Below are positions 52,439 to 52,780 of a stretch of 56,597 nt of DNA, one piece after another. Source of the DNA: a virus; the IMG/VR virus record IMGVR_UViG_3300020470_005093, positions 1 through 56,597 of that record; one strand, given 5' to 3'. The notes under the pieces are model-generated. The model saw only the letters and a list, made by a program, of their open reading frames with translations. It searched no databases and was not told the origin of the DNA. The position numbers and the translations under genes are program-made. How positions within the stretch are numbered: position 1 is the stretch's first letter; every line of letters begins with the position of its first letter.

Positions 52439-52467
52439 ATTATATATGAAAAAAGGGGGTATGTAAA
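52439..52467 (-). promoter_or_regulatory. sigma70-type promoter for the 58-aa/thyX unit (TTTACA-17-TATAAT)
   Basis: The minus strand has TTTACA (52462-52467), a 17-base spacer and a perfect TATAAT (52439-52444), with the ATG 20 bases further on. The -35 lies in the loop and stem edge of the terminator at 52449-52475, so one sequence acts both as transcription stop and as promoter. Confidence 0.65.
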
Positions 52468-52475
52468 CCCCCTTT
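52449..52475 (-). terminator. rho-independent terminator after the DUF4278 gene
   Basis: The minus strand has the stem AAAGGGGGT/ACCCCCTTT (9 bp) with a 6-base loop and then TTTTTT, immediately after the DUF4278 stop at 52479. It is the strongest terminator in this window, together with the one at 56206-56232. Confidence 0.8.
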
Positions 52476-52478
52476 CTA

Positions 52479-52622
52479 TTAACTGCAAGGTACTGCCTTG
52501 CTCTTTACCTTGATACCTCGATACATAAGATCGAAGTTCCTGTGCTTTGCTGCTTCAGCAAGCACTCTTTTGTTGTACTCTTCAGTGTCGTACTCGACAC
52601 CACGGTAAGTAACTTGTGCCAT
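52479..52622 (-). CDS. DUF4278-type small protein, 47 aa
   Basis: The ATG at 52622 has GGAG 7 bases upstream, so the start is preferred over the earlier in-frame ones, which would lie inside the aptamer region. The protein (MAQVTYRGVEYDTEEYNKRV and NFDLMYRGIKVKSKAVPCS) has two YRG motifs (TYRGVxY near the N-terminus, MYRGIK later), typical of the cyanobacterial DUF4278 family of unknown function. Two glutamine-aptamer-like hairpins and a sigma70 promoter precede it, and a terminator follows, so it is a single-gene unit. Such small ORFs behind glutamine aptamers are known from marine cyanobacteria. Confidence 0.7.
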   Translation of the reverse strand: MAQVTYRGVEYDTEEYNKRVLAEAAKHRNFDLMYRGIKVKSKAVPCS

Positions 52623-52655
52623 TGGCTTTCTCCAAAGTAGTAGGGATTTTTGCCC

Positions 52656-52697
52656 CGTTCCTTCAGTCGGCTTTTGCGTCCTCAAAGAGGATGAACG
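52656..52697 (-). promoter_or_regulatory. glutamine riboswitch-like aptamer, copy B (Downstream-peptide/glnA type)
   Basis: On the minus strand the element starts CGTTCATCC, has a stem-loop CCTC-TTT-GAGG, the core GGACGCAAAAGCCGACT, and closes with GGAACG, which pairs with CGTTC to form P1. The order (P1 with GUUC/GAAC, P2 hairpin, GACGCAA core) fits the glutamine-binding aptamers found upstream of short ORFs in marine cyanobacteria. It ends 33 bases before the DUF4278 ATG. It is the second of two tandem copies. Confidence 0.72.
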
Positions 52698-52701
52698 ATT
52701 C

Positions 52702-52742
52702 CGTTCCGAGTCGGCTTACTTGCGTCCCTTATGGGATGAACG
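52702..52742 (-). promoter_or_regulatory. glutamine riboswitch-like aptamer, copy A (Downstream-peptide/glnA type)
   Basis: On the minus strand: CGTTC (P1 5' side), the P2 hairpin TCCC-ATAA-GGGA, core GACGCAAGTAAG, a P3-like hairpin CCG-ACT-CGG, and GGAACG (P1 3' side). P1 and P2 pairing are kept between copies while P2 bases change (TCCC/GGGA here; CCTC/GAGG in copy B), which is covariation. The promoter start lies only a few bases before it, so the aptamers open the transcript. Confidence 0.72.
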
Positions 52743-52751
52743 ATTGTGTTA

Positions 52752-52780
52752 ATACTAACACACGTATACTATATAGTCAA
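52752..52780 (-). promoter_or_regulatory. sigma70-type promoter of the riboswitch unit (TTGACT-17-TAGTAT)
   Basis: The minus strand has TTGACT (52775-52780), 17 bases, then TAGTAT (52752-52757). The expected transcription start is about 52745, just before the first aptamer at 52742. It fits an early, host-polymerase-driven transcript. Confidence 0.65.

Follow-up and report, generated by a model that had tools for sequence, protein, structure and literature searches.

Occurrence of glnA RNAs in tandem has been on record since 2010 (PMC2864571), and PMC9481103 lists 157 glutamine doublets, which it classes as pseudo-cooperative. In the genomes of cyanobacteria, glutamine riboswitches mainly target DUF4278 genes (PMC6316151), and these cellular homologues respond to glutamine by activating expression (Klaehn et al. 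2018, as reported in PMC6316151). In the crystallised aptamer, the E-loop is formed by the strands AGUA and GAA (GGAAGUAA/UGAAGC; PMC5393176). Glutamine riboswitches in T4-like cyanophages and in phage AG-345-P14 are mentioned in passages of PMC9964418, PMC9602691, and PMC9004378. The locus described here lies in a stretch of viral DNA of 56,597 nucleotides (IMG/VR record IMGVR_UViG_3300020470_005093, positions 1–56,597; referred to below as the window), the minus strand of which carries, between positions 52780 and 52450, a promoter-like site, two copies of a glnA-aptamer-like element, a 47-residue DUF4278 gene, and a terminator. The initial annotation of a self-contained unit with a glutamine riboswitch-like leader before a DUF4278 gene is borne out, as all of the parts are found at the proposed positions, and relatives of the leader exist, as it had stated, in marine cyanobacteria and phages. 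As tandem glutamine aptamers, DUF4278 targets, and glutamine riboswitches of cyanophages have each been described before, the unit is, at this level of description, of a known kind. The proposal that the copies are two independent tandem aptamers is not supported. Each copy supplies one strand of P3 and one of the E-loop, and the helix that joins the copies covaries, so that they form one composite unit. Our reading of the leader as a single composite glutamine-type riboswitch that is ON for the DUF4278 gene and likely tunes host nitrogen assimilation has, in our estimate, a probability of about 0.7.

All features of the window described below are on the minus strand. The promoter-like site (TTGACT-17-TAGTAT, 52752–52780) had been annotated as a sigma70 promoter. 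It is present where proposed, and its support is the recurrence of a similar TTGACT(A/T)AATA sequence at the same place, upstream of the aptamer, in relatives; sites of this type are no more frequent in the window than in shuffled sequence. A palindrome, TGTGTTAGTATTAACACA (52745–52762), covers the −10 region directly 5' of the aptamer. A hairpin or palindrome occurs at this place in 98 of the 119 tandem loci listed, with 53 different arms, and may be a DNA operator or a 5' RNA hairpin. In loci such as L123–L139 the palindrome often has TATAAT at its center and a TTGACTAAATA-like sequence upstream, which in some loci is replaced by TATAAATA. The intrinsic terminator 3' of the DUF4278 gene (hairpin and U tract, 52450–52477) is as strong as originally supposed, with a hairpin folding energy of −16.7 kcal/mol and a z score of −3.4. 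Low-scoring Rfam matches on the opposite strand, to SraG and similar families, are matches to this terminator and were rejected. The gene thyX lies downstream and a purN-like formyltransferase gene and phoH are nearby, neighbors that fit a T4-like cyanophage. Parts of the region are matched by 139 phage records, the majority of which are named Synechococcus, Prochlorococcus, or cyanophage. A manA RNA (RF01745, 142–188 bits) is found near the DUF4278 unit in several cyanophages (L126, 1103–1297; L134, 1069–1254; L139, 416–601; L141, 1557–1756).

The product of the 47-residue gene (52479–52622) matches DUF4278 (PF14105) with 23.9 bits and an E value of 5.5e-5, just below the gathering cut-off of 25.3, and phrog_5049 with an E value of 4.4e-22, which upholds the family assignment made earlier. 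YRG motifs are invariant among the phage DUF4278 relatives, and RefSeq names the relatives from P-TIM40 and S-SSM5 as DUF4278. A search of solved structures with DUF4278 returned no match. DUF4278 corresponds to only the dispensable N-terminal part of the glutamine-synthetase inactivating factor IF17 (PMC6316151), and the phage protein is a relative of this part of the cyanobacterial factor. Because of this relationship, the phage protein is likely, by analogy, to adjust nitrogen assimilation by the host at times of abundant glutamine. In the viral contigs L017, L035, L038, L066, and L069, the composite is followed by a gene for another DUF4278-type protein, which is extended at its N terminus (MNTLTLIKNQIEKAA..., phrog_545).

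Relatives with tandem copies were gathered by pattern from isolates and from IMG/VR, with at least 120 stretches in each IMG/VR scan. The third pattern scan selected RAA in the last copy, whereas the other two, including a scan for the junction between copies, did not. The P1 strings were used to find loci, which is part of the reason that the P1 strands are invariant in this sample. The shuffle and permutation controls treat loci as unrelated, and kinship is handled only in the tests on a DUF4278 tree.

The covariance-model check that the initial annotation had proposed gives a divided result. Copy 2 (52652–52699) matches the type 1 glutamine riboswitch model RF01739 with 38.0 bits, above the gathering score of 35 (E value of 1.1e-4 for all of Rfam and 56.6 kb), and copy 1 (52700–52744) matches it with 27.8 bits, below that score (E values of 8.4e-4 in a 701-base search and 1.6e-5 for the single family and the whole record). 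Both matches are well beyond chance level. The type 2 model RF01704 scores 25.6 and 23.7 bits, under its cut-off of 33 bits, so that neither match amounts to membership. P1 (CGUUC/GGAACG) and a P2 hairpin of the RF01739 type are present, and between the copies the P2 stem changes from TCCC/GGGA to TCCTC/GAGGA with pairing kept, as had been noticed. The E-loop (AGUA opposite GAA) and P3 of RF01739 are found only in the composite and in neither copy by itself; two complete, independent aptamers, as in a tandem pseudo-cooperative riboswitch, are thus not present, each copy having an incomplete P3 and E-loop. The canonical core sequence CGGA reads CGCA in the window, and the core is strongly conserved across relatives. 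The junction between the copies, GGAACGGA-N-CGTTCA, is present a single time in the window and in none of 100 shuffles.

The division of the E-loop is uniform. In each of the 125 tandem loci listed, the first copy contains AGUA and lacks RAA ahead of GGAACG, and the last copy contains RAA and lacks AGUA, one of the three scans having selected for RAA. In the window AGUA is at 52717–52720, only in copy 1, and GAA at 52662–52664, only in copy 2. In the 124 relatives listed, the strand that follows AGUA in copy 1 pairs with the one that precedes RAA in copy 2. In the window these P3 strands, both AGCCGACU, are at 52709–52716 and 52665–52672 and pair with two mismatches, C.A at position 3 and A.C at position 6. 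The segment lengths fall mainly into two classes, (6,7) in 60 and (9,10) in 56 of the 124 loci listed, and the two strands vary in length together. Short pairs are AGUCG/CGACU with the variants AGUCA/UGACU, AUUCG/CGAAU, GGUCG/CGACU, and AGUCG/CGGCU; here the strands differ from each other, and all eight distinct combinations give all five pairs. Long pairs are AGCCGACU/AGCCGACU; positions 3 and 6 hold mismatches of the C.A type, and position 8 is U-A in 41 of the loci listed, A-U in 9, and G-C in 4. When partners were permuted within each length class, none of 3000 permutations was as good as the observed pairing in either class, and sliding the strands lowered the share of paired cells from 100% to 47% or less in the short class and from 81% to 36% or less in the long class. 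On the DUF4278 tree, the two P3 strands change length together in all 7 independent pairs (p = 0.016), and changes at position 8 agree in 3 of 3 and 2 of 2 pairs and never go the opposite way; these tree-aware tests have few supported pairs. In 23 loci, 12 double-change cells were counted in the inter-copy P3, compared with 3.4 ± 1.6 in shuffled data (0 of 500 as high), and no covariation was found in P3 hairpins drawn inside one copy. Copies with short P3 strands have no P3 of their own.

The composite aptamer occupies 52656–52742, as defined by the RF01739 matches, the MFE fold, and RNAalifold. Its outer P1 pairs CGUUC at 52738–52742, the 5' end of copy 1, with GAACG at 52656–52660, the 3' end of copy 2. 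P2a (UCCC-AUAA-GGGA, 52725–52736) has compensatory changes among relatives at two of its four pairs, and P2b (UCCUC-UUU-GAGGA, 52679–52691) at four of its five. An inner hairpin (GAACG-GAAU-CGUUC, 52693–52706), made by the last strand of copy 1 and the first strand of copy 2, has a pair probability of about 0.97. Applied to 23 compact relatives, RNAalifold returned the outer P1, P2a, the inner hairpin, and P2b unprompted. The whole composite is 95.8% paired, with a covariation score of 0.227 against 0.082 ± 0.009. A covariance model of the composite gives the window 104.4 bits, the window being among its training sequences. P2a, P2b, and P3 covary, the E-loop strands are split between the copies, and the most fitting description of the module is a single composite aptamer that contains an additional P2 and a P1-like inner hairpin. 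In the proposed fold the outer P1 would tie the start of copy 1 to the end of copy 2 and be followed by P2a and the CGCA core; the E-loop, from AGUA of copy 1 and GAA of copy 2, and P3 would then form between the copies, and at the distal end of P3 the inner hairpin and P2b would make a second junction, pseudo-symmetric to the first. This fully nested arrangement would be a canonical glutamine aptamer in which the loop of P3 is swapped for a second junction. The GGAACG-CGUUC hairpin had been considered as a misfold that breaks both aptamers, an idea that was dropped after the inter-copy P3 was found, since the hairpin reads better as a part of the composite.

The topology of P1 is assigned on other grounds. 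Each copy does carry both strands of a P1, as the initial annotation had it. However, because the four P1 strands are identical, pairing within and between copies are both possible, and pairing of copy 1 with copy 2 is lower in energy. The free fold of the window aptamer has the RNAalifold topology at −23.0 kcal/mol, against −19.3 kcal/mol with P1 forced within each copy. With a 2-bp P3 forced, the composite lies below the within-copy fold in energy in only 15 of 23 relatives. The P1 strands are invariant, and a looser search gave no convincing variant pair; the choice of partner for the outer P1 therefore follows from energy, from the shortness of the linkers, and from homology with the canonical fold, and not from covariation. 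The linker between copies is 3–6 nucleotides in every tandem locus listed, and P1 helices closed within each copy combined with P3 between copies would make a double pseudoknot across such linkers, which favors the nested composite.

The conventional description would be a tandem of two independent glutamine aptamers that each close their own P1 and act pseudo-cooperatively on one gene. It is how Sherlock et al. (2022) class glutamine doublets, of which the 157 in PMC9481103 are known examples; each copy in the window matches RF01739 separately, and the fold with P1 inside each copy is only 3.7 kcal/mol worse. We consider this unlikely for the cyanophage leader, where neither copy has both E-loop strands in any of the 125 loci listed, copies with a short P3 strand lack an internal P3, the covariation lies in P3 between copies and not within them, and the lengths of the two P3 segments vary together. 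The complementarity of P3 might instead be a by-product of near-identical sequence after a recent duplication without joint function, as AGCCGACU is present in both copies of the window and is partly self-complementary. This is very improbable, because the strands of the short class differ and yet are fully complementary (AGUCG/CGACU; 8 of 8 combinations) with compensatory variants, and the cores differ consistently between the copies.

The composite could also be correct and its ligand or sign different, either because another compound is sensed or because ligand control has been lost and ribosome traffic alone governs translation. The altered core (CGGA to CGCA) and the split E-loop, as compared with the crystallised aptamer GGAAGUAA/UGAAGC (PMC5393176), speak for such a change. 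On the other hand, CGCA is also the core of the consensus of glutamine-binding type 2 RNAs (RF01704 model), the DUF4278 context is that of proven glutamine riboswitches (PMC6316151), and the core is strongly conserved across relatives; a different ligand or sign is thus improbable, if slightly less so than independent aptamers. The composite glutamine-type riboswitch is the reading followed below.

Its polarity is predicted from the DUF4278 translation start. The strand CUGAAG (52661–52666), which consists of the end of P3, the GAA of the E-loop, and one G, pairs in the ligand-free fold of the full leader with CUUUGG over the Shine-Dalgarno region CUUUGGAG (52630–52637), and the outer P1 is absent from this fold. 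The anti-Shine-Dalgarno strand is complementary to the Shine-Dalgarno region across relatives, with a duplex energy in the 148 leaders listed of −7.42, against −3.82 for shuffled leaders and −6.61 after permutation among loci. UUCAG, one form of the Shine-Dalgarno sequence, is confined to leaders with a CUGAAG core (31 of 95 versus 0 of 44, p = 1.4e-6 with kinship ignored). Since this strand cannot at the same time sit in P3 and the E-loop, folding stabilised by a ligand predicts ON. In the model, CUGAAG would pair with the Shine-Dalgarno region of the DUF4278 gene in the absence of glutamine (OFF) and would be held in P3 and the E-loop in its presence, allowing translation (ON). From this model and by analogy to the cellular homologues, we infer that glutamine is the ligand of the phage composite and that its polarity is ON. 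The initial statement that it was unknown which state glutamine favors is outdated, as the cellular homologues are ON (PMC6316151) and the phage anti-Shine-Dalgarno pairing predicts the same.

In the majority of the relatives found, the leader is interrupted by genes inside the aptamer. A nested case was defined by CGTTCATC, an ATG within a few bases, and an in-frame stop that falls within the 3' half or at its margin; at least 138 distinct cases were collected, at least 118 without near-duplicates, with open reading frames of 49–75 codons. The loci listed comprise about 64 that are compact in the first copy and nested in the second, 23 compact in both, 18 nested in both, and 8 nested and then compact. 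Where the nested families are recognised, they are phrog_504 in P2b and phrog_6471 in P2a. The compact form is found in the window phage, P-TIM68, S-PM2, and AG-345-P14. The window has, at 467–631, a free-standing homologue of phrog_504 with no aptamer sequence around it (E value of 3.2e-11 with an HMM and 1.4e-7 with phrog_504). The DUF4278 tree, which is poorly resolved, gives 26 and 22 changes between nested and compact forms, i.e. many switches.

The P2 stem is retained across the nested genes. Its mean length is 5.96 bp, versus 4.08 bp with permuted 3' strands (0 of 5000 as long). All 110 listed P2b cases pair at both variable columns (C-G, U-A, A-U, U.G); pairing in P2a is weaker, with the fourth pair missing in 10 of the 28 P2a cases listed. 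A tree-aware test of P2 across the nested genes is consistent with this and has low power, the peptide tree being unresolved. Aspartate codons that overlap the core are GAC in 179 of 179 instances, versus 84 of 338 elsewhere in the same reading frames, and the core is retained despite four different stop registers. The reading frames look like real genes by their divergence at codon positions, with 1300, 691, and 2318 differences at positions 1, 2, and 3. Among the 118 cases listed, the nested AUG lies wholly within the contiguous P2 stem in 45 and partly within it in 55. The stops are mostly in the E-loop strands, as UAA (in AGUAAG) or URA (in CURAAG); in 17 of the 118 listed the stop is in the 3' strand of P2 instead, and there the type of stop and the bases upstream of the start mostly co-vary. 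Because a ribosome and the fold would occupy the same nucleotides, translation of a nested gene and folding of its aptamer would be mutually exclusive, and the composite folded with glutamine would also mask the nested start codons. A switch of this kind, in which low glutamine favors the nested genes and high glutamine DUF4278, is a proposal to which we give even odds. Nested genes such as those of L137, L164, and L216 encode a short hydrophobic N terminus and two cysteines (e.g. MYHILLSLIAIGAPLDC...C), shared features that suggest export or membrane contact of the predicted proteins.

A scan of genome contigs for a cellular source of the composite gave five loci, all on cyanophage-like contigs. 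The phage-type 3' half was found in one of 300 sampled host-family genomes, on a phage-like contig, and the composite model, which is of the compact form and would miss doubly nested ones, matched one of 121 host-family genomes; both single matches are to the same phage-like contig, so that no cellular composite was found in these samples. Three loci filed as Rhodospirillaceae, Nonlabens, and Dehalococcoidia (L230, L231, and L233) carry the cyanophage leader. The Nonlabens contig, of 188 kb, is closely similar to P-TIM40 at the leader, and the three therefore look like misfiled phage contigs.

The cyanophage glutamine "tandem" riboswitches may thus be re-read as a single interlocked sensor, the strands of which are common to two repeats. 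Covariation across a gene shows protein-coding genes in aptamer loops whose start and stop regions double as RNA structure, which extends the single reported case of an upstream reading frame in an aptamer to a conserved and repeated arrangement. The model in which abundant marine phages sense the nitrogen state of the host and switch between small proteins is testable.

As compared with type 1 glutamine riboswitches (RF01739), the composite shares P1 (CGUUC/GGAACG), P2, the AGUA/GAA E-loop, P3, and a DUF4278 target, but the strands of its E-loop and P3 are in two repeats, CGGA reads CGCA, and in place of L3 it has a further P2 and CGCA core together with the inner hairpin that resembles P1. 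With type 2 (Downstream-peptide, RF01704) it has in common the CGCA core, a short DUF4278-type reading frame downstream, and multiple copies, as in marine picocyanobacteria (PMC6316151), although the match to this family is weaker here and there is no pseudoknotted P3 around a single copy. The tandem pseudo-cooperative riboswitches of PMC2864571 and PMC9481103 likewise have two glnA-like repeats before one gene. Those doublets are treated as separate riboswitches, whereas the cyanophage repeats interlock, and PMC9481103 includes only doublets without intervening reading frames, whereas the cyanophage relatives have them within the repeats. Marine phage glutamine riboswitches are also described upstream of the tmRNA in the methylophage Melnitz and in AG-345-P14 (PMC9004378). 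AG-345-P14 carries a close relative of the window leader; the passages of PMC9004378 that deal with these riboswitches describe them without inter-copy structure, nested genes, or DUF4278. Finally, uMetE2 in the metE B12 aptamer of M. tuberculosis (PMC11260477) is, like the nested genes, a translated reading frame within an aptamer that competes with its folding. It is, however, a 48-nucleotide upstream reading frame in a peripheral extension, whereas in the cyanophages conserved genes of 49–75 codons fill the loop of P2, and their start-codon region and stop codon are parts of the aptamer.
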